Below are positions 6,710-58,208 of a DNA stretch of 64,000 nt, piece after piece. The DNA comes from Streptomyces sp. V1I1 (GTDB lineage Bacteria > Actinomycetota > Actinomycetes > Streptomycetales > Streptomycetaceae): NCBI RefSeq assembly GCF_030817355.1, contig NZ_JAUSZH010000001.1, forward strand, positions 992,001-1,056,000, read 5' to 3'. A program made the position numbers and the translations under genes. The notes under the pieces were generated by a model. The model was not told the origin of the DNA. It saw only the letters and a list, made by a program, of their open reading frames with translations, and did no database searches. The first letter of the stretch is position 1; every line of letters starts with the position of its first letter.

Positions 6710-7264
6710 TCAGCCCCGGGTGGGTGCGGCTGCGTCCGTGGCCTGTGACGCGGTGCGCTGCTCGTGCTGTTTGCGCTGCCCGTAGCGGGTCCGGCCCTGC
6801 GGCTTGTACACCGACAGAGCCGTCGCCACGAGGAGCACCAGCACCGCAGCACCGGACTGGAACACGAGCTGGGTCCTCAGGCCGTCGAGTTCACCACTGG
6901 ACCAGTCCGCTCCCGCCGCTATTCCGGCGATGTAGCTGATCGGCTGCATGTGCACCAGCAGCACGATGGTGGACAGGACCGTGATCACGAGTTTCACCAC
7001 GACCCAGTAGTACCGGACCAGGCCCCAGGTAGTGCCCAGGGACGAGACAACCCCGGTCAGCAGCGAAGCGAAGCACAGCGGGACGATGACGAACCAGCCG
7101 GTCAGGTCCATCGCGACATACGCGGACCGTGCCGTCTGGGCATCCTGACTGGTAAGACCGGCGACGGCGAGAGCCAGGAAGACGGCGACCGCGCCGAGCC
7201 AGCCCACCGAGGCCGTGACGTGCGCGGTGAGCGCGAGCTTACGCAGGCGCGGTGTCATCGCCAT
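6710..7264 (-). CDS. Four-helix membrane protein (DUF2269-like)
   Basis: 184 residues with four hydrophobic segments: LTAHVTASVGWLGAVAVFLA, WFVIVPLCFASLLTGVV, VVKLVITVLSTIVLLVHM and SGAAVLVLLVATALSVY. The first carries a conserved-looking His in the HVTASVGWLG context, as in DUF2269-type proteins. Its ATG shares one base with the stop codon of the upstream 59-residue gene (TGATG), so the two are translationally coupled. The pair is read from a promoter containing a TetR-type palindrome. Function unknown. Confidence 0.72.
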   Translation of the reverse strand: MAMTPRLRKLALTAHVTASVGWLGAVAVFLALAVAGLTSQDAQTARSAYVAMDLTGWFVIVPLCFASLLTGVVSSLGTTWGLVRYYWVVVKLVITVLSTIVLLVHMQPISYIAGIAAGADWSSGELDGLRTQLVFQSGAAVLVLLVATALSVYKPQGRTRYGQRKQHEQRTASQATDAAAPTRG

Positions 7265-7443
7265 CAGTGATGGCCCCCCATATCGCCGCCCGCCAGGTGC
7301 ATGATCACGAACGCCAGGACCAAGGCTATGGCAACGACGGCGAACACGATCACCCACCGCGGCCTGCCCGATGCCGGAGGGGGACCGGGCCTCGCCGCGT
7401 CCGTCCCGTCGGCCGAGTGGGTAGCAGGGGGAAAGTCAGCCAT
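7264..7443 (-). CDS. 59-residue single-pass membrane protein
   Basis: A small gene with a Pro-rich N-terminus, one transmembrane helix (WVIVFAVVAIALVLAFVIM) and a metal-friendly tail HLAGGDMGGHH. GGAGG lies 8 nt before the ATG. The stop codon overlaps the start of the four-helix membrane protein by one base. It is divergent from a TetR gene and its promoter carries the palindrome at 7503-7517, so it is probably the first target of that repressor. Confidence 0.7.
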   Translation of the reverse strand: MADFPPATHSADGTDAARPGPPPASGRPRWVIVFAVVAIALVLAFVIMHLAGGDMGGHH

Positions 7444-7502
7444 GAGTGTGTCCTCCGCTGTCGTGCGCGATTACCGAGTCCGTCACGGCGGCCACCTTTT
7501 GC

Positions 7503-7557
7503 GAGACAGGCTGTCTCTGTCAAGTCATCGTGTCACGGAGTCGTCGTCGCGTATATT
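7503..7557. promoter_or_regulatory. Divergent TetR promoter region with operator
   Basis: The palindrome GAGACAG-G-CTGTCTC (7503-7517) lies inside the 17-nt space following a TTGACA -35 element on the minus strand (7524-7519), where a repressor would block the small-membrane-protein operon; the minus -10 is poor. On the plus strand, GTGTCA (7530-7535), 16 nt and TATATT (7552-7557) lie 6 nt from the tetR ATG, suggesting a leaderless tetR transcript. Confidence 0.62.
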
Positions 7558-7563
7558 CGGGGG

Positions 7564-8226
7564 ATGCCGAAGCTCTGGAACGAGACGATCGAGGCACACC
7601 GCCACGCAGTGCGCGAAGCGACCCTGGACGCCACCGCGGCACTGGTGACCGAGCACGGGCTGCTCTCGGTGACGATGTCGCGCATCGCCCAGGAAACCGG
7701 CATCGGACGGGCGACGCTGTACAAGTACTTCCCGGACGTCGAATCGATCCTGACCGCCTGGCATGAACGTCAGATCACCGGACACCTCGAACACCTCACC
7801 GCGGTAAGGGACCAAGCCGGCGATGAGGGCGAGCGGCTCGAAGCCGTGCTGACTGCATACGCGCTCATGACCCACAGGCGGCACGAGCACCACGGCACCG
7901 AGGTCGCGGCACTCCTGCATCAAGGCAAGCACGTCGCACGGGCGCACCAGCAACTCAGAGGACTCATCAGCGACTTGCTGGCCGAGGGAGCCAAGGCCGG
8001 CGACCTGCGGAACGATGGCGCACCCGACGAACTCGCCGCCTACTGCCTCCACGCCCTCGGCGCAGCCGGCAGCCTGCCCTCCGAAGCCGCGGTCCGAAGA
8101 CCTGTCACGGTCACCCTGGCCGGGCTGCGCCCCCCGGCCGAAGCCGTCGGCCCGGCCTCCGCCGCCAAGGAAGCGGATGACCAGGAACAGCACCTGCACC
8201 ACCACCGACGGCACGGCGCCCACTGA
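7564..8226 (+). CDS. TetR-family repressor
   Basis: 220 residues. The N-terminal helix-turn-helix reads LSVTMSRIAQETGIGRATLYKYF, the classic TetR signature; the C-terminal ligand domain is followed by a His-rich tail (HLHHHRRHGAH). The ATG immediately follows a -10 element, so it is probably leaderless. It is divergent from the 59-residue membrane protein with a shared palindromic operator, so autoregulation and control of that operon are likely. The His-rich tail could bind metal; the ligand is unknown. Confidence 0.88.
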   Translation: MPKLWNETIEAHRHAVREATLDATAALVTEHGLLSVTMSRIAQETGIGRATLYKYFPDVESILTAWHERQITGHLEHLTAVRDQAGDEGERLEAVLTAYALMTHRRHEHHGTEVAALLHQGKHVARAHQQLRGLISDLLAEGAKAGDLRNDGAPDELAAYCLHALGAAGSLPSEAAVRRPVTVTLAGLRPPAEAVGPASAAKEADDQEQHLHHHRRHGAH

Positions 8227-8344
8227 CCGTTGGCCGGAGGCGTTGCGGCTGTCTCTGACAGCCAGGGGTCGTCCCGGGCGCTCGACGCGCCTGATCAGCA
8301 CTGGCCGCCGGATCGTGATCCGGCGGTCAGGTTGCTCGTCTGCG

Positions 8345-8443
8345 TTAGCAGCAGGTGTTGCCGCATGCCTCGGGCGGGCACTCCGGGTCGTCGCAGCAGC
8401 CGCCGCGGACGGGGGCCTCGACGGTAGTGATCTCCTCGGTCAT
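8345..8443 (-). CDS. 32-residue Cys-rich peptide
   Basis: The ATG at 8443 follows a near-perfect ribosome site (GGAGGTGA, 4 nt away). The peptide begins MTEEITTVEAP and ends GGCCDDPECPPEACGNTCC, six cysteines in 19 residues, like a minimal metallothionein. It lies at the end of the merR-type gene, in the same frame as that gene's C-terminal half, so it may instead be the regulator's tail. With the upstream frameshift, the shifted merR frame stops at the ATGA overlap and the peptide would be made separately. A metal-binding role is inferred. Confidence 0.5.
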   Translation of the reverse strand: MTEEITTVEAPVRGGCCDDPECPPEACGNTCC

Positions 8444-8853
8444 CTGGTCACCTCCTTCCGGTCGCCAGGTGCCCGGCACCGGGTCCGGGCAGTCGGGGGC
8501 GGGAATGCGGGCGAGCATCTGTTCCAGCTCGCCACGCAGGGCGGACAGCCGGGCCATCTCGGCGTCGATCTCGCCGATCCGGCGCCGCAGCATGTCCTCA
8601 GCGGGCTCGCAGGGGCACTCGCCGGTGTCGCGCACAGCCAGCAGGTCACGGATCTCGCGCAGCCGCAGTCCCAGACGCTGGGCGCCTGGATGAAGCGCAA
8701 GCGATCGGTGGCCTCGGGGCCATAGAGCCGGTAACCGGCCGCCGTGCGTTGCGGCGCGGACAGCAGGCCGGCCCGTTCGTAGTAGCGCACGGTGTCGGCC
8801 GAGACTCCGACCTGTGAGCCGAGAGCCGAGACGGTGAGGTGCGAGCCGTTCAT
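8345..8853 (-). pseudogene. MerR-family metal regulator, frameshifted
   Basis: The first part (from ATG 8853) encodes a clear MerR winged helix: LTVSALGSQVGVSADTVRYYERAGLL, then AGYRLYG. After RFIQ, near 8685, the frame changes. The natural continuation (RLGLRLREIRDLLAVRD, ECPCEP, a dimerisation helix and CPDP) lies in another frame and runs into the Cys-rich tail ending at 8345. One base lost or two gained near 8680-8690 explains this. The promoter at 8863-8892 is a canonical MerR-regulated site and looks intact. Sequencing error cannot be excluded. Confidence 0.78.
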
Positions 8854-39240: not shown

Positions 39241-39260
39241 TGACCTGCGACTGTCTCCAG

Positions 39261-39334
<74 letters not shown>

Positions 39335-39423: not shown

Positions 39424-39609
39424 TCAGAGCTCTTCCATGACGAAGTCGGCCTTCATGGCGCCGCAGTCGGGGCACTCCCAGGTGTCGGGGATGTCCTCCC
39501 ATCGCGTACCCGGCTCGATTCCCTCTTCGGGCAGGCCGAGCTCCTCGTAGTACACCCAGCCGCACAGGAGACACATCCACGACCGCTTGCCGGACGACTG
39601 GTCGTTCAT
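39424..39609 (-). CDS. Rubredoxin
   Basis: 61 residues with two iron-binding knuckles, C13xxC16 ([13 protein letters not shown]) and C46xxC49 ([13 protein letters not shown]). A one-electron carrier. It overlaps the alpha/beta hydrolase gene by ATGA and is the last gene of the desaturase operon. It probably delivers electrons to the three membrane di-iron desaturases, as in polyyne clusters. Confidence 0.95.
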
Positions 39610-40493
39610 GAGATCCCTTCTCTGTTCCTGTTCCAGTCCATGTTCCGGGAGACGAACGCGGACACCAGCGCCTTGACCTCCCTGTCCATGAGGATCCCGG
39701 CGTGACCGGTCCCCGGCGCCTCTTCGAGGGTCACATGGCGCAGACCTGCGGCGACGGCCTTGGCGTCGGAGTACGGCACCATCGGGTCGCCCGGGTCGTG
39801 GACGGCCAGGACGGGGGTGTCGAGCCCGATGCCGAGCGCGACGGCGTCCCAGTGGCTGACGGGCACGCCGTTGCGGAGGTGGAGTTCGCGGTAGATGCCG
39901 TCGACCACGGTGCGGGTCAGCCGAAGTCCCGCGCCGTCCCATCGCTCCAGCACGCCGCCCAGGGTGCAGGCGGGGGCGATCGCGACAAGGCAGTCGAGCG
40001 GCGGCGCGGTCCGCCGCACGGTCCGCTGCACGGCCGCCCCGACCGAGGCGATCGTGCCCAGCGAGTGCGCGACGATCACACGTACGTCCCCGAGGGTGTC
40101 GAGGACCGCCCGGACCGCCCGCGTGTACTGGGTCATGGTGGCCTGCGAGCCCTTGCGCACCCCGTGGGCGGGAGCGTCGAACGCGGCGACCGACAAGCCG
40201 AGTTCACGCATCGGAGCGACGAGCGAGTACATGCTGCTGCTGTCGGACGCCCAGCCGTGGACGAGCAGCGCGGTGCCTTCCGTACCGCCCTGTTCGCCCC
40301 ACAGGTATCCGTTGGGCGCGTCAGGGCTGTCGTGCACGGTGAAATTCCGTGCGCCCAGCGGCAGTACGTTGTCGGGGCGCAGCCCGAGAGTGCGCGTGCT
40401 GCTGAAGACATCGGTCGCCACGCGCGCACCCGCCCCGGGCGCGACGGCGCCCAGGGCGGTGTGGGCGAATCTGCGCAGGGCTCGCGCCGTCAC
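39606..40493 (-). CDS. Alpha/beta hydrolase (probable acyl-releasing enzyme)
   Basis: 295 residues. Oxyanion region [14 protein letters not shown], nucleophile elbow [14 protein letters not shown] (GxSxG-type HSLG), acidic residue in [14 protein letters not shown] and catalytic His in [16 protein letters not shown] 40493 overlaps the upstream desaturase stop; the ATGA at its end overlaps rubredoxin. In the corresponding place of known polyyne clusters a hydrolase/thioesterase releases the product from the carrier protein. Confidence 0.9.
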
Positions 40494-41593
40494 GAGGCAC
40501 CCTTGCCGGACGCCATGGCCTTCTCCCCCGGCGCCACCTTGGCGCGGGTGCGGTCGGTGTAGAAGCCCGACTCGGTGTCGTAGAAGTGCAGATGGCGCAC
40601 GATGCGCCACATCTGGCTGAAGCTGAACTTCTTCTCCCTGACCATGCCCGGGTACTGCCGTTTGAGTGCCTCCTGTGCCTTGGGGAGGTTGTAGTACGGC
40701 ACGACGGGCGCCACATGGTGCGCGGTGTGGATGGAGATGTTGTGGGTGAGGAACAGCAGCCACTTCGGGTAGACGTAGTCCGTGGTGAGCAGCAGCCGGC
40801 TGGCGTTGCGCGTCCAGTAGTCGGCGGTCAGATAGGGCACGTCGCTGGCGCTGTGGTGCATCAGCGTCGTGGCGCTGAACCACGCGTGGGTGGCGATCCA
40901 GGGTGCGACGAAGTACAGCAGCACGCCCTGGAATCCGGTGAAGTGGATGAGCAGTCCGAAGTAGGGGACGCCCAAGGCGAGGACGAAGGCGATCGAGCGC
41001 CGCACCTCGCGCCGCTGTCCCTGCTTGGGGAAGAAGCCGGGCCGGAAGCCTGACTCCAGCCAGTAGTTGATGGTGCCGCCCCAGAATGCCCAGGTGCGCG
41101 TGGACATGTAGACGACCTTCTCCCACACCGTCATGCGGTCGTACATACCGGCCGGCAGCGGGCGCCAGTCGGTATCCAGCTCCAGGTGGTTGGTGCTGCT
41201 GTGGTGCATATTGTGAACATGTCGCCAGGCGTGGAAGGGGTAGGCCAGCGGCAGCAGTGACAGGTGCCCGATGGCGTAGTTGAACTTGCGGGAGCGTGAG
41301 AACGATCCGTGCCCGCAGTCGTGCGCGATGCAGTGGAGGCCCCACCCGCCGAGCCCGGCCACGATCCACAGCGGTATGCAGAGCAGCCAGTGCGGGGCGT
41401 AGGCCACGCCGAGGATCGCGCCGAAGTACAGCAGCCAGCTGACGGCGAAGCCGGCGATGCCGCGGGCGACCCGGGGTTCGAAGTAGTCCTTGGGGATCGC
41501 GCCGGCGAGGCGCTCCCCCTCGATCTGCTCGGACTGCCGGAGGAACTTCTCGAAGTGTTCGTCAGGCGCCGAAGGAAAGTTGAACGCACCCAT
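40490..41593 (-). CDS. Membrane fatty-acyl desaturase/acetylenase (third)
   Basis: 367 residues of the DesA (omega-6/delta-12) type. Histidine boxes: HDCGH (IAHDCGHGSF), HNMHH (RHVHNMHHSSTNH) and HTAHH (SIHTAHHVAPVVPYYNLP), with paired membrane helices between. Such di-iron enzymes insert double or triple bonds. It lies directly downstream of the acyl carrier protein gene and upstream of the hydrolase, so an ACP-bound acyl chain is the likely substrate. Confidence 0.93.
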   Translation of the reverse strand: MGAFNFPSAPDEHFEKFLRQSEQIEGERLAGAIPKDYFEPRVARGIAGFAVSWLLYFGAILGVAYAPHWLLCIPLWIVAGLGGWGLHCIAHDCGHGSFSRSRKFNYAIGHLSLLPLAYPFHAWRHVHNMHHSSTNHLELDTDWRPLPAGMYDRMTVWEKVVYMSTRTWAFWGGTINYWLESGFRPGFFPKQGQRREVRRSIAFVLALGVPYFGLLIHFTGFQGVLLYFVAPWIATHAWFSATTLMHHSASDVPYLTADYWTRNASRLLLTTDYVYPKWLLFLTHNISIHTAHHVAPVVPYYNLPKAQEALKRQYPGMVREKKFSFSQMWRIVRHLHFYDTESGFYTDRTRAKVAPGEKAMASGKGAS

Positions 41594-41626
41594 GTCGTCT
41601 GTCGTCTCCTTTGCGGACGTCCGGTC

Positions 41627-41911
41627 CTACAGCCTGAGTTCCTTGGCGAGGTAGGCGCTGAGGTCGTCGATGGACTGGTATTCGTACAGCAGGCCCGGGG
41701 AGAGGCGGCGCTCGACGATCTTCTCGAGCGCGCCGGAGACCTGGACAGCCACCCGCGAGTCGAGCCCGTAGGACTCGAAGGTCTTCTTCGTGTCGATCTC
41801 ACCGGCCGGGACCTCGATCTGCGCGGCCAGGTAGTCGGTCAGCCACTGTCTGAGCGACTCTTCGGTCAGTGGGCCGTCCGGCTTCGGGACGGCTTTCTTC
41901 CTCCTGAACAA
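41627..41911 (-). CDS. Acyl carrier protein
   Basis: 94 residues. Four-helix ACP pattern with the phosphopantetheine site at S52 in FESYGLDSRVAVQVSGALEK and a C-terminal LYEYQSIDDLSAYLAKEL. The start is TTG 41911, with GGAG 7 nt upstream; no ATG or GTG is suitably placed. Positioned between desaturases two and three, it is the dedicated carrier loaded by the FAAL. Confidence 0.9.
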   Translation of the reverse strand: MFRRKKAVPKPDGPLTEESLRQWLTDYLAAQIEVPAGEIDTKKTFESYGLDSRVAVQVSGALEKIVERRLSPGLLYEYQSIDDLSAYLAKELRL

Positions 41912-42033
41912 CTGCCAGCTCCTGTCTTGCCTCTGTCCTGGGCGGACGATGGGGGTGATCTCATGTGCGGAGTGATCCGGCGGGATTGGAAGAGGTACCG
42001 CGGGACACGACGGGGTACGGCGGGGTACGGCGG

Positions 42034-43008
42034 CTACGGCACGGCCTGGCGGACGGCCGCGGTCCTCGCCTCTTCCCTGCGCTTGGCGATCGTTTCCGCG
42101 TCGGGCTCGCGCAGGCTCCAGACGACGCCGACCTTGCCGAGTCCGGCCAGCAGCCAACCGCTCATGTCCGGCTCCCACCAGGTGACTCCGTGGCGGTAGG
42201 AGCCGGGGAATGCATGGTGGTTGTTCTGCAGGCCCTCACCGAAGGTGAGCAGGGCAACGGGCCAGTTGTTGGCGCTGCGGTCCTTGTTGTGGAAGGGGCG
42301 GCCGCCGAACGCGTGGCAGACGGAACCGACGCACCAGGCCGCCTGGTTGGCGACGAAGATCCGCGCGAGCCCACCGAAGACCAGGCCGGTGAGCGCGGAC
42401 ATCGCGGTCCCCTCGACGGCGAAGCCGATCAGGGCGGGCAGCACCAGTCCGCTGACCACCCACAGGGGATAGGTGCGGTGGAAGTACATCAGCCGCCGGT
42501 TCTTGAGCACATCGGGGCCGAAGACCGTCCACTTGGTGGTCTCCGCGCTCAGCATCCACGGCATGTGCGCGTACCACAGGCCGTGCATACGGGCCTTGAA
42601 GCCCCTGCCGTGCAGATTGGGCGAGTGCGGGTCGCCCTCCTGGTCGCTGAAGCGGTGGTGTCTGCGGTGAGTGGTTACCCAGAACATCAGCGGTCCCTGC
42701 GCGCCCATGGAACCGGTGATCATCATCACCGCCTCGAAGGCCGGCGAGGTCTTGAACGCCTTGTGGGCGAGGTAGCGGTGGAAGCCCACGGTGATGCCGA
42801 ACATGTGCACGAAGTACATGGCCCCGAAGAGCCACAGGTCCGTTGCCGTGAAGTTTCCGGTCCATAAGAAGTACACGGCGGCTGCCGTGCCGATGAGCGG
42901 CAGCGTCATCGTCGTCAGCGCGGAGAAGCGTTTGATCCGCAGACTGGCGGGATCAAGCGTGACGATGGCGCCGGAGAGTGCCCCGGAGGTGGCCGTGGCC
43001 GAGGACAT
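42034..43008 (-). CDS. Acyl desaturase, delta-9 type (second)
   Basis: 324 residues. Histidine boxes HRYLAH, HRRHH (VTTHRRHHRFSD) and NNHHAFPGSY, plus HAFGGRPFHN; four membrane helices. It shares one base-pair boundary with the preceding desaturase gene (TGATG-like overlap at 43008). Paralogous to the first desaturase (43008-44045) by the same box spacing. The 122 nt to the ACP gene contain short GGGGTACGGC repeats and no gene. Confidence 0.93.
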   Translation of the reverse strand: MSSATATSGALSGAIVTLDPASLRIKRFSALTTMTLPLIGTAAAVYFLWTGNFTATDLWLFGAMYFVHMFGITVGFHRYLAHKAFKTSPAFEAVMMITGSMGAQGPLMFWVTTHRRHHRFSDQEGDPHSPNLHGRGFKARMHGLWYAHMPWMLSAETTKWTVFGPDVLKNRRLMYFHRTYPLWVVSGLVLPALIGFAVEGTAMSALTGLVFGGLARIFVANQAAWCVGSVCHAFGGRPFHNKDRSANNWPVALLTFGEGLQNNHHAFPGSYRHGVTWWEPDMSGWLLAGLGKVGVVWSLREPDAETIAKRREEARTAAVRQAVP

Positions 43009-44045
43009 CAGTCGACTCCTTCCTTGTCAGGTCGTTCCCGGTCGGGATAGCGCGCGTTGGACACCAGGCCCAGCGCGCGTTCCCGGTCGGGATAGCGCGC
43101 GTTGGACACCAGGCCCAGCGCGTCGAGTGCCCGGATGACCGCCCCCGTGGGGTCGATCTGCCAGAGCCCGTGCCGGTTGTGCGCGAGCGCCGGGCGGGCG
43201 TGGTGGTTGTTGTGCCACGAGCCGCCGACCGACAGCGCGGCGAGCGGTGCAACGTTTCTGCTGTTGTCACGGGTGCGGTAGGGCCGGTTGCCGATGCTGT
43301 GGCCGATGGAGTTGACGCCCCAGGTCACATGGTCGAGCAGGAAGATCCGCGCCAGCCCGCCCCAAAGGAAGCCGCCCACTGCCCCGCGCACACTCCCGGT
43401 GGCCAGCCAGCCCAGCAGAGCGGGCAGCGCGAGACCCGCGAGGATCCAGCCGAAGTAGTACTGGTTGAGGCGCATCACCAGCCGGTCCCGTACGAGGTCG
43501 GGCACGCGCTTGGCCCAGTTCTGCCGGCGTACCTGGAACAGCCAGCCGACGTGTCCGTGCCAGAACCCGCGCAGCCGTGGGAACCGGCCGCCGCCGAGCG
43601 GCCGCGGCGAATGCGGATCGCCGTCGCGGTCGGTGAAGGCGTGGTGCTGGCGGTGGGTGGCGACCCAGAACAGCACAGGTCCCTGGGCCGCCATGCTTCC
43701 CGCGATGCCCCAGAAGGCGGTCATGCCGGGCCCGGCGGTGAAGGACTTGTGGGAGAAGAACCGGTGGAAGCCGCCCTCGACGCCGAGCGAGGTCACCGCG
43801 TACATCATCAGCAGGAGCAGGCCGTCGACAAGGGTGAATCCGTAGTTCCAGGAGAAGGCGACGGCCGCCGCGAAACCGAGGGTGGGCACCCCGACGGTGA
43901 CGTAGGCGAGCCTCCTCGCCGCCGTGTCCAACTCCTCGACGGGCGGTGATTCGGCGGGGGCTGTCGTGTGGTCCGCGGGTGTTGTCGTGTGGTCGGTGGA
44001 AGTTGTCGTGTGGTCGGTAGGGGTCGTCGTGTGGTCGGTGGTCAT
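43008..44045 (-). CDS. Acyl desaturase, delta-9 type (first)
   Basis: 345 residues. Histidine boxes HRFFSH, HRQHH (VATHRQHHAFTD) and NNHHARP. Odd ends: the N-terminus is four heptad-length repeats of DHTTTPT type, and the C-terminus carries a perfect 15-residue duplication (ALGLVSNARYPDRER twice) from a 45-bp tandem repeat. The core enzyme is intact. It overlaps the FAAL gene upstream by ATGA, so both belong to one operon. Confidence 0.93.
   Translation of the reverse strand: MTTDHTTTPTDHTTTSTDHTTTPADHTTAPAESPPVEELDTAARRLAYVTVGVPTLGFAAAVAFSWNYGFTLVDGLLLLMMYAVTSLGVEGGFHRFFSHKSFTAGPGMTAFWGIAGSMAAQGPVLFWVATHRQHHAFTDRDGDPHSPRPLGGGRFPRLRGFWHGHVGWLFQVRRQNWAKRVPDLVRDRLVMRLNQYYFGWILAGLALPALLGWLATGSVRGAVGGFLWGGLARIFLLDHVTWGVNSIGHSIGNRPYRTRDNSRNVAPLAALSVGGSWHNNHHARPALAHNRHGLWQIDPTGAVIRALDALGLVSNARYPDRERALGLVSNARYPDRERPDKEGVD
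43034..43123. repeat. 45-bp perfect tandem duplication in desaturase gene
   Basis: Two adjacent 45-bp units (43034-43078 and 43079-43123) differ only at the last base. In frame, they double 15 C-terminal residues of the first desaturase. Near identity at the DNA level, including wobble positions, shows the duplication is recent. Confidence 0.92.
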
Positions 44046-45871
44046 CGCACGGACACCTGGCTTTCGGCCGGCGAGGGCGGGAAGGCCTTGAGGCTTCCGT
44101 TCACGAAAGCGGCCTTGGTGGCGTTGCGGCGGATCTTGCCGCTGGTGGTCATCAGAACGACCCCGGGCGGGCCGAAGTGCACCGCACCCGGCTTTACTCC
44201 GTGTTCGGCGGTCACCGCGGCCGTCACCCGCTCCCGCAGCCGGTCCTCCTCGGCCGCGAACTCTCTTGGCGTACCCCGGAATTCGGCGACGACAACGACC
44301 TCTTCCTCCTCCCTGCGCGTGCTGCGCACGGAAAAGGCGGCCGTTCTGCGTAGTGCGCTGTGGGACTTCTGGACGGAGTCCTCAATGTCCTGCGGGTAGA
44401 GGTTGCGACCGCTGATGACGATCAGGTCCTTGAGCCGTCCGGTGACGAACAGCTCCCCGTCGAGCAGGAAACCGAGGTCGCCGGTGCGCAGATACGTCTG
44501 TCCCGCTCTGCCCGGCAGCGTCGCGCCGAACGTCTTCGCCGTCAGTTCCGGCCGGTTCAGATATCCGCTCGCCACGTTCCGGCCGCTGACCCAGATCTCT
44601 CCGATCCTCCCGGTCGGCACCGGCTGTGCGCTGTCCGGGTCGACGACGACGACCTCGTGACCGGTGGCGATGACGCCGCAGCTGACGACGCCCACCGCTC
44701 CCGCGGCCTCGCGGTCCGGGGCGCGGCGCACCTCGCCCAGCTCCAGCGCAGTGCCGTCCAGCCACTCGGTCCGTACGCCTTCGCTCTCGGGTTTGCCGGA
44801 GACGAAGAGCGTCGCCTCGGCCAGTCCGTAACAGGGGATGACCGATGAGGGGTTGAAGCCGGTGACAGGGCCGAAGCGCTCGTGGAATGTGCCGAGCGTC
44901 GCCCCGGAGACCGGCTCGCTGCCGCAGAAGACCTGCCGCAGCGTACTCAGGTCGAGGGTCCGCAGCTCGTCGTCGCCGATGGACGAGGCGCACAGGTCGA
45001 AGGCGAAGTTGGGCCCGACTGTGATGGTCACCCGGTGGTCCGTGATGGCCTTGAGCCAGCGGTAGGGGTCCTGGACGAAGTGCACCGGGGAGAGCATGAC
45101 GAGCGGCCATCCGCCGTGCACGGCCAGCATGATCGTCCCCATCAGACCCATGTCGTGGTACGGCGGCAGCCAGGAGCAGCCGACGCGGTCGGGCTCCATC
45201 CCCATGTGGGCTTCGAGCACCCGGCAGTTGCTGACCAGGTTGTCGTGGGTGAGCACGATTCCCTTGGGGTCCCCGGTGGAACCGGAGCTGTACTGAAGCA
45301 GCGCCTGGTCAGCGAGGCGCAGCGGGGCCGCGGCTTCCCCGGCGCCGAGGTAGAACTCCTCCTCAGGGAAGATCCACTCGATCTGCGGGGAGCCGCCCGG
45401 GAGTTGCTCGTCGAACTGCCCGGCCTGGCCGCTGAAGCGCGGATCGGTCAGGACGGCGTCGGGCGCGCAGTCCACCACGATGGAGAGGAAGCGCGCCATG
45501 GCGCGCTTCCCGATGGGCGGGAAGGAGGGGACGGCGGTGCAGCCGGCCCTCAGAATTCCGAACAGCCCGGCCACATAGTCGAGTCCGGGGTCGACGGCGA
45601 GGACCACCCGGCCGCCGTCGAGACCCCGCCGGCCAAGCTCGGCCGCCACCGCCTCGGCGCGCACGGCCAGCTCGTGATAGGTCCAGTCGACAGCCTGGTC
45701 GCTCGTGCCGTCCTGAAGAAAGCGGAACGCGAGCCGGTCCGGCTGCGTCCTCGCCCGCTCCTGAAGGATCTCGGGCAGAGACGTTCCCAGGGGCTTCGTC
45801 TCCAGGGGCTTCGTCTCCAGGGGCTTCGGTGGCGTTTTCGGGGACGACGATTCCGCTGACGGCGTTTCCAC
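44042..45871 (-). CDS. Fatty acyl-AMP ligase (FAAL)
   Basis: 609 residues, adenylate-forming. Core motifs: LLQYSSGSTGDPKGIVLTH (P-loop), WLPPYHDMGLMG, CYGLAEATLFVS, YLRTGDLGFLLDGELFVTGRLKD and KIRRNATK at the C-terminus. It activates a free fatty acid and passes it to the ACP. The N-terminus has short PLETK repeats encoded by 15-bp tandem units near 45790-45830. It overlaps the first desaturase by ATGA; 57 nt separate it from the thioesterase upstream. Confidence 0.95.
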   Translation of the reverse strand: METPSAESSSPKTPPKPLETKPLETKPLGTSLPEILQERARTQPDRLAFRFLQDGTSDQAVDWTYHELAVRAEAVAAELGRRGLDGGRVVLAVDPGLDYVAGLFGILRAGCTAVPSFPPIGKRAMARFLSIVVDCAPDAVLTDPRFSGQAGQFDEQLPGGSPQIEWIFPEEEFYLGAGEAAAPLRLADQALLQYSSGSTGDPKGIVLTHDNLVSNCRVLEAHMGMEPDRVGCSWLPPYHDMGLMGTIMLAVHGGWPLVMLSPVHFVQDPYRWLKAITDHRVTITVGPNFAFDLCASSIGDDELRTLDLSTLRQVFCGSEPVSGATLGTFHERFGPVTGFNPSSVIPCYGLAEATLFVSGKPESEGVRTEWLDGTALELGEVRRAPDREAAGAVGVVSCGVIATGHEVVVVDPDSAQPVPTGRIGEIWVSGRNVASGYLNRPELTAKTFGATLPGRAGQTYLRTGDLGFLLDGELFVTGRLKDLIVISGRNLYPQDIEDSVQKSHSALRRTAAFSVRSTRREEEEVVVVAEFRGTPREFAAEEDRLRERVTAAVTAEHGVKPGAVHFGPPGVVLMTTSGKIRRNATKAAFVNGSLKAFPPSPAESQVSVR

Positions 45872-45928
45872 AGAGGGCCTTTCTGCTGGACAAGGGTCTG
45901 CTGGATCGGGGTCAGGGCGGTTTGGCGG

Positions 45929-46747
45929 TCAGCCCTGACGGACGAGGCGGAGCTGGTGCGCGGTGCCCAAGTGGGTGCCGTCGCGGCCCCAGGCGTCGAT
46001 CTGCTCGTCGACCCAGCCGCTCGGGCTCGCCGCGAGCGTCCTCGCCCGCAGCAGGATCCATGGCGACGAGGTCTGGGCGAGCCCGACGCCGGGCCTGACC
46101 GTCAGCTCGACCGTCGGCACAAATGCGAGCGTGGACAAGATCGCCGTGTACGAGGGCGCAAGGGCGTCCATGAGAAAGACAAAGCGCAGAACGTCCGGTG
46201 GATCGTCGTCCTCGACGATCCTTATCCACGCCGTCAGTTCGGGTTCCTTTCCGCCCGCATACGGACGTGAAACACCCACCGGCCTGATTTCCATGCTGGT
46301 GGCGATGGGCAGGAATTCCTTGGGAATGGCGAATACTTCAAGATCCTCGGGCGCCGGCGATTCGGGAGCCGCGGGAGCGACGAGCGGCCAGTCCGCATCG
46401 CTTCCCGCACCGAAAATAGCGGACGCCTCGACGTGCACGCCTTTGTCGGTCTCTGCGGACGCCGTCACCGTTGACGTATTGCGCCCGGCCCGCACCAGCG
46501 AACTCGTAATACGGAATCCGGAATCAATCGGCCTGCCGAATCTTCCGGTGATGCTCCGCAGCTCGAGGCCGGGAGCGTGCGACTCCATGGCGGAGGCCAG
46601 CACGGCGAGGGTGAGACCGCCGTGAAACCCCCCGAAGCCGTTGAGATGACCTGCGGCTTCCACCCATTCCCCAGTGGGCTTTCGCAGCAGAACGCCGGGC
46701 GGGATCAACTCTCCAAGGCCATCGTGATCAACTATGATATTTGGCAT
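45929..46747 (-). CDS. Double-hotdog thioesterase-like protein
   Basis: 272 residues of the TesB/4HBT_3 type: GHLNGFGGFHGGLTLAVLASAM (first hotdog helix), FGRPIDSGFRITSSLVRAGRNTSTVTASA, and second-half elements RFVFLMDALAPSYTAIL and SPWILLRARTLAASPSGWVDEQIDAW. It is the first gene of the operon. It may release or edit acyl chains. The start at 46747 precedes the first conserved segment; the extra 21 in-frame codons upstream lie in the AT-rich promoter area. Confidence 0.84.
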   Translation of the reverse strand: MPNIIVDHDGLGELIPPGVLLRKPTGEWVEAAGHLNGFGGFHGGLTLAVLASAMESHAPGLELRSITGRFGRPIDSGFRITSSLVRAGRNTSTVTASAETDKGVHVEASAIFGAGSDADWPLVAPAAPESPAPEDLEVFAIPKEFLPIATSMEIRPVGVSRPYAGGKEPELTAWIRIVEDDDPPDVLRFVFLMDALAPSYTAILSTLAFVPTVELTVRPGVGLAQTSSPWILLRARTLAASPSGWVDEQIDAWGRDGTHLGTAHQLRLVRQG

Positions 46748-47113: not shown

Positions 47114-47638
47114 TCAGACCTGGGCGGAGCCGTCCTCGGGCGCGACCGGCCCGTTCCAGTCCCAGCCGGGTGCGCGCACCTGCAGCCGCAATTCCTCGGG
47201 AGCAACCTCCCCGCCGCAGTGGCGACAACTGTGGACCATGTCCAGCTCCTCGCCGCAGGAGTGGCTGAACACCGCGGGTGGCTCGTCGACGAGCCATCGG
47301 TCGCCCCACGCGCGCAGCGTGGTCAGCACGGTCAGCAGGTCCCGCCCCGCTTCGGTGAGGTGGTACTCGAAGCGAGGGGGGTGCTCGCTGTACGGCCGCC
47401 GGGCGAGGACGCCCACCGACTCCAGATGGCGCAGACGCGCCGTGAGGACATCGCGGGGAGCGCCGGTGTTACGGGCGATCGCGGCGAAGCGGTGATTGCC
47501 GAAGCTGATCTCCCGGACGGCCAGCAGCGACCATTTCTCGCCGACCGCCTGAAGCGACGCCGCGATCGAGCACGGCCTGCCGCGCGAGTCCAGGGCCAGA
47601 GCGGGGAGTGCGCCGTCCTCCGCGGTGCGTGCCTTCAT
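47114..47638 (-). CDS. HxlR-family regulator
   Basis: 174 residues. HxlR winged helix: CSIAASLQAVGEKWSLLAVREISFGNHRFAAI, then TGAPRDVLTARLRHLESVGVL and YHLTEAGRDL. The C-terminus adds a zinc-ribbon-like set of cysteines (SHSCGEELDMVHSCRHCGGE). Divergent from an EmrB-type exporter, with a palindrome between them. It may respond to a redox or electrophilic signal through its cysteines (inference). Confidence 0.9.
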   Translation of the reverse strand: MKARTAEDGALPALALDSRGRPCSIAASLQAVGEKWSLLAVREISFGNHRFAAIARNTGAPRDVLTARLRHLESVGVLARRPYSEHPPRFEYHLTEAGRDLLTVLTTLRAWGDRWLVDEPPAVFSHSCGEELDMVHSCRHCGGEVAPEELRLQVRAPGWDWNGPVAPEDGSAQV

Positions 47639-47695
47639 ACCCCCTAGGTTGCCACATCCAACTCACTCCCTCTAGCATCCCGTGCCGAGTAGTCA

Positions 47696-47710
47696 GTTTG
47701 ATATCCAAAC
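47696..47710. promoter_or_regulatory. Palindrome between HxlR and exporter
   Basis: GTTTG-ATATC-CAAAC, a perfect 5-bp-arm dyad about 57 nt from the hxlR start and 100 nt from the exporter start. Candidate HxlR operator. Confidence 0.5.
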
Positions 47711-47812
47711 CACAGCGCGTCAGATCCGCACCCCTGAAGGAAGAGCGAACCCCTTCGCGCAGCTGCCGGTTCCGGTCGGCCAAGCCGCACCCTCCTGAAG
47801 AGAGTGAAGAAC

Positions 47813-49231
47813 ATGGTCCAACAGGCCTCAACCGTCGAGGACAAGGCAGCGATCTCCCGCTTCCGCCTCGTCTTCGCCGTCGTCGCCGCAGGCGTGGCGA
47901 TGTCGAACCTCGACCTCTTCGTCGTGAATGTGGCGATCCCCAACATCAGCAGCCACTTCGACGAGGCGTCGCTGTCCTCGCTGTCGTGGGTGCTCAACGC
48001 ATACGCCGTGGTCTTCGCCGCGCTGCTTGTCCCCGCGGGCAGCTTCGCCGACCGCACCGGGGCGCGGCGCGCGTATCTGCTGGGCATCTCCGTCTTCACC
48101 GTGGCCTCGGTGCTGTGCGCGGTCGCGCCGAGCGTGTGGTTCCTGGTGGCGGCGCGGGTCGTCCAGTCGGCCGGAGCCGCGCTGTTGATCCCCGCCTCGC
48201 TCGGCATTCTGCTGGCCGCCGCGCCGCCGGAGCGGCGCGGCGCGGCCGTACGCAACTGGGCGGCCCTGAGCGGACTGGCCGCAGCTCTCGGCCCGGTCAT
48301 CGGTGGTGCGCTCGCCCAGGCCGACTGGCGCTGGATCTTCCTGATCAACGTGCCGGTCGGCGTCGCCACCGTCGTCGTCGGCCGGCGTGCGATCGCGCCC
48401 TCCCCCCGCCGTAAGGACACAGGCCGCGGCGATCTGATCGGCGCGGCGCTCCTGACTGCCGGGATCGGCGCGGTCGCCCTCGGGCTGGTCAAAGCCCCCG
48501 ACTGGGGCTGGTCTTCGGGCTCCGTGGCGATCACGCTGGCGGCCGCGGTCGTTCTGCTCGCCCTGTTCGTCTGGCGCTCGGCGAAGCATCCGGCGCCGGT
48601 TCTCCCGCTGGATCTGCTGCGGATTCCGGCGATGGGCCCTGCCATGCTGGCGAATCTGCTGTTCGCGGTGGCGTTCGGCGCGATGCTGCTCTCCGCCGCC
48701 CTGTGGTGCCAGGACGTATGGCACTGGTCCGCGCTGCAGACCGGTCTGGCGATCAGCCCCGGGCCGCTGATGGTGCCGCTGCTGTCCAAGTACGCGGGCA
48801 TGCTCGTGCAGCGCTTCGGCGCGGCCGGGGTGTCCACCGCCGGCTGTGCGCTCTTCGCGGTCGGCCTCGTCTGGTGGATCGCGGCCCTGAGCGTCGATGA
48901 CCACGACTACGTACTGGGGCTGCTGCCCGGCATGGTGCTGACCGGCATCGGCGTGTGCTTCACGCTGCCCACCCTGGTGGGCGCGGCCGTCACCCGGGTC
49001 CCGCCGACGAACTTCTCCACCGGCTCGGGCGTGGTGACCATGGCGCGTCAGGCCGGCAGCGTGGTGGGTGTCGCGGGCCTGGTCGCCGTGCTCGGCAAGC
49101 CGTACGGCACCGCCGTGATGGACGCTTTCCGCCACGGCTGGATCTTCACTCTGGTGGCGACGGTCGCCGCGGCGGCGGCCTGCTGCCTGCTCCTGCCCCA
49201 CACGAAGCCCGCGGCCCGCGCCGACGCCTGA
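47813..49231 (+). CDS. 14-helix MFS exporter (EmrB/QacA type)
   Basis: 472 residues from ATG 47813 (GTG 47804 is an alternative). DHA2 signatures: MSNLDLFVVNVAIPNISSHF in helix 1, AGSFADRTGARRAYLLG in the 2-3 loop, and ADWRWIFLINVPVGVA in helix 5. Divergent from the HxlR regulator. Being next to the polyyne-type operon, it could export its product, but it could equally be an unrelated drug pump. Confidence 0.92.
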   Translation: MVQQASTVEDKAAISRFRLVFAVVAAGVAMSNLDLFVVNVAIPNISSHFDEASLSSLSWVLNAYAVVFAALLVPAGSFADRTGARRAYLLGISVFTVASVLCAVAPSVWFLVAARVVQSAGAALLIPASLGILLAAAPPERRGAAVRNWAALSGLAAALGPVIGGALAQADWRWIFLINVPVGVATVVVGRRAIAPSPRRKDTGRGDLIGAALLTAGIGAVALGLVKAPDWGWSSGSVAITLAAAVVLLALFVWRSAKHPAPVLPLDLLRIPAMGPAMLANLLFAVAFGAMLLSAALWCQDVWHWSALQTGLAISPGPLMVPLLSKYAGMLVQRFGAAGVSTAGCALFAVGLVWWIAALSVDDHDYVLGLLPGMVLTGIGVCFTLPTLVGAAVTRVPPTNFSTGSGVVTMARQAGSVVGVAGLVAVLGKPYGTAVMDAFRHGWIFTLVATVAAAAACCLLLPHTKPAARADA

Positions 49232-58026: not shown

Positions 58027-58134
58027 GCTCATTGCCAGTCGCGCAGGAAGCCCTCCCAGGTCTTCGGGAGCCCTGAACCGGAGCATGAGAAGAGGGCCTC
58101 CGCAGGCTCTGACCTGTGAAGACCCTCAACACCG

Positions 58135-58208
<74 letters not shown>

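Follow-up and report, generated by a model that had tools for sequence, protein, structure and literature searches.

A polyyne-type operon in Streptomyces sp. V1I1 and a probable detached P450 tailoring locus with HxlR regulators and a shared palindrome

Introduction

Polyynes are reactive fatty acids that carry several triple bonds in a row. Bacterial polyyne gene clusters, among which the caryoynencin cluster cay is named, have been catalogued by Mullins 2021 (PMC8406139). One clade in the catalogue belongs to Actinobacteria and spans seven genera, among which Streptomyces dominates; in a 10-genome subclade, a P450 takes the place of hydrolase and rubredoxin (PMC8406139). Up to 2021, none of the polyynes of actinobacteria had been linked to a gene cluster (PMC8406139), and our literature search returned none tied to one among the matches listed. 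In Massilia sp. YMA4, the genes masD-masJ, with masH swapped for a Burkholderia homologue, direct synthesis of the ene-triyne massilin C in Escherichia coli; less of it is formed when the rubredoxin is omitted, and MasB hydroxylates it (PMC9098870). MasL, an acetyl-CoA acetyltransferase, is covalently modified by polyynes and has been proposed as a self-resistance enzyme (PMC9098870). Here, an eight-gene operon in a 64,000-nucleotide stretch of Streptomyces sp. V1I1 (G000:C1:992001-1056000, hereafter the window; host genome 8.30 Mb in two contigs) is compared with these systems. Taken as a whole, the comparison makes it fairly probable that the window holds a compact polyyne core which is served by a detached P450 tailoring locus under HxlR control.

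Results

The operon occupies 46747 to 39424 of the minus strand, and its eight genes are intact, with no internal stop codons. It begins with a double-hotdog acyl thioesterase (45929..46747, 272 aa; Pfam 4HBT_3 and 4HBT_3C), followed by a fatty acyl-AMP ligase (FAAL; 44042..45871, 609 aa; AMP-binding), desaturase 1 (Des1; 43008..44045, 345 aa), which overlaps FAAL by 4 bases, and desaturase 2 (Des2; 42034..43008, 324 aa), which overlaps Des1 by 1 base. An acyl carrier protein (ACP; 41627..41911, 94 aa; PP-binding, with a GLDS motif and a TTG start codon picked by eye) and desaturase 3 (Des3; 40490..41593, 367 aa) come next, all three desaturases matching FA_desaturase. The last two genes encode an alpha/beta hydrolase (39606..40493; Abhydrolase_1), which overlaps Des3 by 4 bases and stands where other polyyne loci have their hydrolase/thioesterase, and a rubredoxin (39424..39609, 61 aa; Pfam Rubredoxin), which overlaps the hydrolase by 4 bases and is also placed as in polyyne loci. 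For the ligase, FAAL models are among the best NCBIfam matches, none of them above its curated cut-off, and the best solved-structure matches include FAAL chains. The gene order and the overlaps of 1-4 bases had been given by a sequence-only reading of the window, and every gene of that list is confirmed here by a Pfam assignment.

The last seven genes correspond to the polyyne cassette of Mullins 2021 (PMC8406139): homologues of the jamABC FAAL, desaturase and ACP are accompanied by two further desaturases and by a colocated hydrolase/thioesterase and rubredoxin. Since FAAL, ACP and one desaturase are common to this cassette and the jamABC alkyne cassette (PMC8406139), the operon might instead supply an alkynyl starter to a polyketide synthase or non-ribosomal peptide synthetase, as jamABC does for jamaicamide. 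This is highly improbable, because the two further desaturases, the hydrolase/thioesterase and the rubredoxin mark a polyyne and not an alkyne cassette (PMC8406139), and because neither type of synthase was found among the 39 window open reading frames (ORFs) scanned, which include all those of at least 367 aa among the 62 called.

Relatives were collected through Des3, which is present in 9 of 295 same-genus genomes, the host included, at E 1e-40 or better, and whose identity to eight same-genus loci is 64-84%. An alignment of the nine Des3 proteins led to 47 loci in the named genome collection, and together with eight same-genus stretches, six of them duplicating named loci, 50 loci were compared, two copies from one genome (L029 and L030) being counted separately. 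Wherever the contig is long enough, the order FAAL-Des1-Des2-ACP-Des3, then hydrolase and usually rubredoxin, recurs in loci of Streptomyces, Actinomadura, Burkholderia, Collimonas and Xenorhabdus, so the gene order is not due to chance. No rubredoxin match was obtained in L062, L064, L066, L068 and L071. The departure is clearest in six actinobacterial loci (L052, L058, L060, L061, L065 and L069), which lack hydrolase and rubredoxin and have a P450 after Des3, as in the 10-genome subclade of Mullins 2021 (PMC8406139), and L065 additionally lacks a recognisable Des1. The window does not belong with the P450-replaced subclade, as it has hydrolase and rubredoxin and no such P450 in the locus.

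Phylogeny places the window within the polyyne clade. In a concatenated core tree of 47 of the 50 loci (L030, as a second copy, and L027 and L039, with too few genes, were left out), computed by a quick method without bootstrap and with L063 and L066 flagged as long branches, the 32 actinobacterial rows form one branch (100), in which the window joins six Streptomyces rows, L018, L026, L028, L029, L031 and L032 (98). The tree includes loci of Collimonas and of B. peredens, the latter named under Caballeronia as a holder of the cepacin gene cluster (PMC8406139); its sampling takes in neither alkyne clusters of the jamABC-only kind nor cay, pgn or ccn proteins chosen by name. A second tree, made by a quick method that returned a long-branch warning, took in 54 desaturases from 18 chosen polyyne loci and one other host desaturase (L005), the host's two remaining non-cluster desaturases (L001 and L002) being left out. 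Each of Des1, Des2 and Des3 shares one branch with its polyyne-locus counterparts (support 96, 86 and 100), and the single housekeeping desaturase tested lies outside all three. Desaturase phylogeny and cluster-level similarity had been set beforehand as the points that could overturn the polyyne reading; on both, the locus goes with polyyne loci, and the cluster-level similarity is extensive. The comparison thus supports assignment of the operon to a polyyne-type gene set of an already catalogued kind in an actinomycete, and a polyyne core, taken by itself, is very probable.

The window differs from most of its nearest relatives in its P450. Twenty-six loci of actinobacteria are called sister-type here, namely the window and 25 relatives. 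They come from Streptomyces, Actinomadura and a single record titled Streptosporangium, and all have the hydrolase and, if the contig extends that far, the rubredoxin. A P450 of one family lies inside 23 of them; it is missing at the locus from the window, from L027, a 3.2-kb contig, and from L032 (S. somaliensis). A P450 search of the host genome gave 31 match stretches, 30 of them with loci, and among the matches listed one gene (L114 = L130) reaches 75% identity to the P450 in the L018 cluster, with the second-best match at 36%. This gene (G000:C1:2913330-2914562) is separated from the core by 1.87 Mb and is divergent from an HxlR gene (C1:2912659-2913117), so that a pathway gene of the sister clusters is found at a remote locus; its identity to the P450s within the three closest same-genus clusters is 75-78%. 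Outside the genus, its closest relative is in Actinomadura (L043, 80%). Across the 295 genomes, it gave 13 hits at E 1e-100 or better. Seven genomes have it at 60% identity or above, exactly those seven with a sister-type cluster, and six of them carry it within the cluster; the remaining six matches (44-48%) comprise two in P450-type clusters and four (44-47%) in genomes without a Des3 hit. In a P450 tree, the remote gene stands among cluster P450s, beside L043, L047 and L048 (support 85 and 81).

The nearest solved relative of the remote P450 is P450BioI (3ejb, 203 bits; next 179), which we take to have been crystallised as an acyl-ACP complex. On this likeness, action of the P450 on an ACP-bound chain is plausible. 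Another P450 gene (56286-54877) lies in the window on the operon strand and could be thought to tailor the product in place of the remote one. It was rejected for this role, since it is only 26-30% identical to the cluster P450s of eight same-genus loci, has LutB/LutC and other genes between itself and the core, and has no palindrome of the kind described below near it; its involvement is very unlikely.

Upstream of the operon lie an HxlR-family regulator (47114..47638, PF01638), on the operon strand, and, divergent from it on the plus strand, a predicted MFS exporter (47804..49231, MFS_1), a homologue of which (51-78% identity) occurs in 23 of the 25 other sister-type loci. While the eight genes stand as the sequence-only reading delimited them, the unit runs on upstream into HxlR and MFS and probably also takes in the P450 outside the window. 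By eye, comparison of the HxlR-MFS gap with the remote HxlR-P450 gap gave the palindromic pattern GTTTGNNNNNCAAAC; a wider form, GTTKGNNNNNCMAAC, was prompted by the relatives. The site at 47691..47715, with its core GTTTGATATCCAAAC at 47696-47710, is the sole exact GTTTGNNNNNCAAAC match in the window, with 0 in 100 shuffles. A weight matrix was built from 22 relatives' sites (15 distinct), window and remote locus excluded, and gives this site 19.5 and a second one 48 bp away (47643..47667) 19.3, the next best value in the 64 kb being 9.4. At the remote locus, four sites spaced 44-49 bp (L133 9126-9289) score 27.5, 24.3, 22.4 and 12.2, with a next best of 2.3 in 20 kb.

The wider pattern was scanned in the window, the remote locus L133 and 55 loci of relatives, duplicates among them retained, which makes 57 sequences and 1.134 Mb in total. 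It matched 29 times; five Markov sequences of 1 Mb each gave 0, 6, 2, 5 and 3 matches. All 26 matches in relatives lie upstream of MFS or P450 and none within a scored gene, and 21 are left once duplicate loci and L030 are removed. In the host genome, GTTKGNNNNNCMAAC occurs five times, once at the core, twice at the P450 locus and twice elsewhere, and a reversed control pattern occurs twice. The two sites elsewhere, with matrix scores of 5.5 and 13.6, were not taken as regulon members; one is inside a 690-aa ORF without a Pfam match, and the other has a glycosyltransferase and a cytidylyltransferase-like ORF in its neighbourhood. At the level of sequence, then, the two loci share a regulator family and an operator-like site. 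Sequence likewise supports the detachment of the P450, together with a regulator and palindromes that match, as a feature new to the catalogued clade.

The remote HxlR is 67-78% identical to the HxlR proteins of the polyyne loci L018, L019, L031, L032 and L041-L043, and the closest matches to the window HxlR are in L047 (63%) and L048 (54%, partial). HxlR-family proteins such as YodB sense electrophiles via cysteine, and both host proteins have the cysteine of the ECSIAD/PCSIA motif. No paper combining polyyne and HxlR was found in the literature searched.

Several observations weigh against a two-locus arrangement. First, the seven genomes holding the P450 are related, so their co-occurrence does not amount to seven independent events. 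Second, the P450 tree puts the remote gene with L043, L047 and L048 (85, unstarred), whereas the core tree puts the window with six Streptomyces loci; separate acquisition is therefore possible, as is the break-up of one ancestral cluster. Third, the two HxlR proteins are of different subtypes and 60% identical. Fourth, the matrix reaches 17.7 (L066) and 17.4 (L057) in proteobacterial loci without an HxlR match, so the window scores are not far above chance level in other genomes. Fifth, L033 and, by pattern only, L021 have no site though MFS and P450 are present; the motif is thus not universal. Sixth, ten relatives have sites with scores of 16-29 before the thioesterase, and none lies directly before it in the window; there, HxlR and thioesterase point the same way and may be under one shared control region. 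Finally, the MasL-like thiolase genes and the epoxide-hydrolase-like gene of several sister clusters have no counterpart at either locus, and no close one was seen elsewhere among the matches listed.

Part of this evidence bears on an alternative, in which the core alone makes a plain unoxidised polyynoic acid and the remote pair of P450 and HxlR genes is either an independent relic or part of another pathway. Indeed, masD-masJ gave a simple ene-triyne acid in Escherichia coli (PMC9098870), the P450 and core trees are without clear agreement, and S. somaliensis has the cluster without this P450 in the locus; the best match in its draft genome is only 37%, so within the limits of that draft the P450 can also be lacking entirely. 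However, the identity of the remote P450 to cluster P450s has stayed at 75-78%, a regulator of the type seen in other clusters accompanies it along with the same operator-like palindromes, and no genome among the 295 has this P450 at 60% or more without a cluster, although the four 44-47% relatives mentioned above are in genomes without a Des3 hit. The alternative is rather unlikely, and the compact core with a detached P450 is preferred.

The thioesterase at the head of the operon, which the sequence-only reading had regarded as an unusual addition, turns out to be a normal part of the actinobacterial polyyne clade. FAAL is visible in 46 of the 50 loci, and 43 could be scored, their sequence extending 1.5 kb or more ahead of FAAL. 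In 23 of these 43, a same-strand hotdog thioesterase immediately precedes FAAL (gap of at most 714 bases); in four (L044, L045, L047 and L048) it is elsewhere nearby, and in the other 16 it was not found. It is seen in all of the 26 sister-type loci apart from L027, L039 and L041, where the contig does not reach its position. In its main text, Mullins 2021 (PMC8406139) makes no use of the word "hotdog". In Burkholderia stagnalis and a relative (L044 and L045), the thioesterase (44-45%) lies beside a thiolase about 3 kb before FAAL, and is thus not confined to actinobacteria.

Some sister clusters add thiolases and an alpha/beta hydrolase whose nearest solved relatives are 7clz, 6kxh and 6kxr, which we take to be the epoxide hydrolase Alp1U. 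ThlB of L018, the one thiolase compared, matches solved acetyl-CoA acetyltransferases generally, with MasL (7ei3) fourteenth. As candidates for a thiolase self-resistance gene of the host, the gene nearest to ThlB (67%), which lies beside MeaB and a glyoxalase-family gene and looks like housekeeping, and that nearest to ThlA (only 50%) were rejected, both among the matches listed (30 of 35); the best match to the epoxide-hydrolase-like gene in the host genome is at 34%.

Some further features were noted in the window. Des1 carries a perfect 45-bp in-frame tandem duplication at its C-terminus (43033-43122), which is not found in ten relatives examined, and shorter in-frame repeats lie at the N-termini of Des1 (43951-44041, TTDHTT type) and FAAL (45787-45828, LETKP type). 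The core sits just upstream of one of two identical minus-strand tRNA-Pro(ggg) genes (39260-39334 and 58134-58208, 75 of 75 bases), the similarity of which extends upstream to 39390 and 58266 (89%). A genomic island at this duplication was considered and set aside: no integrase is among the ORFs scanned on either side, and since the repeat takes in sequence upstream of the tRNA, a plain tRNA duplication is equally likely.

Among the relatives, seven Streptomyces plasmids of 0.51-0.63 Mb (NZ_CP033582, NZ_CP011665, NZ_CP115937 and four more) carry Des3 relatives (80%), which suggests that the cluster is able to move. The two very similar copies in S. griseofuscus (L029 and L030) lie near both chromosome ends, presumably within terminal inverted repeats. 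In the Mycobacteriaceae-type loci L062, L064 and L071, a second FAAL-like gene (36-37%) follows the hydrolase, and the match to the L018 FAAL (7014-8800) is spread over two reading frames, apparently through a frameshift or an error in the sequence.

Discussion

In the pathway that we propose, FAAL would load a medium or long fatty acid onto the ACP, and the three membrane desaturases/acetylenases, with the rubredoxin as electron carrier, would convert it stepwise to a conjugated polyyne, probably with a terminal alkyne. The acid would be freed by the alpha/beta hydrolase, the hotdog thioesterase or both; alternatively, the thioesterase may supply free fatty acid to FAAL. From its relationship to the mas core, the window core should make an acid similar to massilin C. 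The chain-oxidising P450 of sister clusters would then be contributed from its remote locus, and the MFS protein would export the product. As neither the thiolase nor the epoxide-hydrolase-like kind is present at the two loci, this exporter would be the only candidate seen for self-protection.

HxlR would act at the palindromes between its own gene and MFS, possibly in response to the reactive product or a related electrophile, detected via the conserved cysteine. Since the remote P450 lies beside an HxlR of its own and the same kind of palindrome, both loci would switch together. A fuller form of this idea, in which two HxlR electrophile sensors, one per locus, and one palindromic operator couple core synthesis and export with the distant P450, so that reactivity sensing tunes export and oxidation of a thiol-reactive product, is tentative and on balance the less probable outcome. 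The operator-like palindrome offers a handle for testing the control of Streptomyces polyyne clusters and aids in finding distant pathway genes missed by cluster-mining. The remote P450 also means that predicting a structure from the core by itself may mislead.

Among known systems, cay was compared by gene order: it has FAAL, two desaturases, ACP, desaturase and hydrolase in the order of the window and, unlike the window, a P450 inside the cluster. The P450-replaced subclade shares with the window FAAL, Des2, ACP and Des3 in order, and Des1 in five of its six loci, and its P450 is a distant relative (43-48%) of the remote one; unlike the window, it is without hydrolase, rubredoxin, a head thioesterase match (L061 leaves no room for one) or a palindrome site. 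The mas cluster for massilin/collimonin agrees with the window in FAAL, two desaturases, ACP, desaturase, hydrolase/thioesterase and rubredoxin, and differs in hydroxylating by the dioxygenase MasB and in having masL, neither kind being near the window core (PMC9098870). The actinobacterial clade with hydrolase and rubredoxin has the same seven-gene order (PMC8406139): the core tree puts the window among its Streptomyces and Actinomadura loci, and head thioesterase, MFS and HxlR recur there. Unlike that clade, the window locus is without thiolase, epoxide-hydrolase-like gene and P450, a close relative of the last being encoded 1.87 Mb away beside an HxlR gene.

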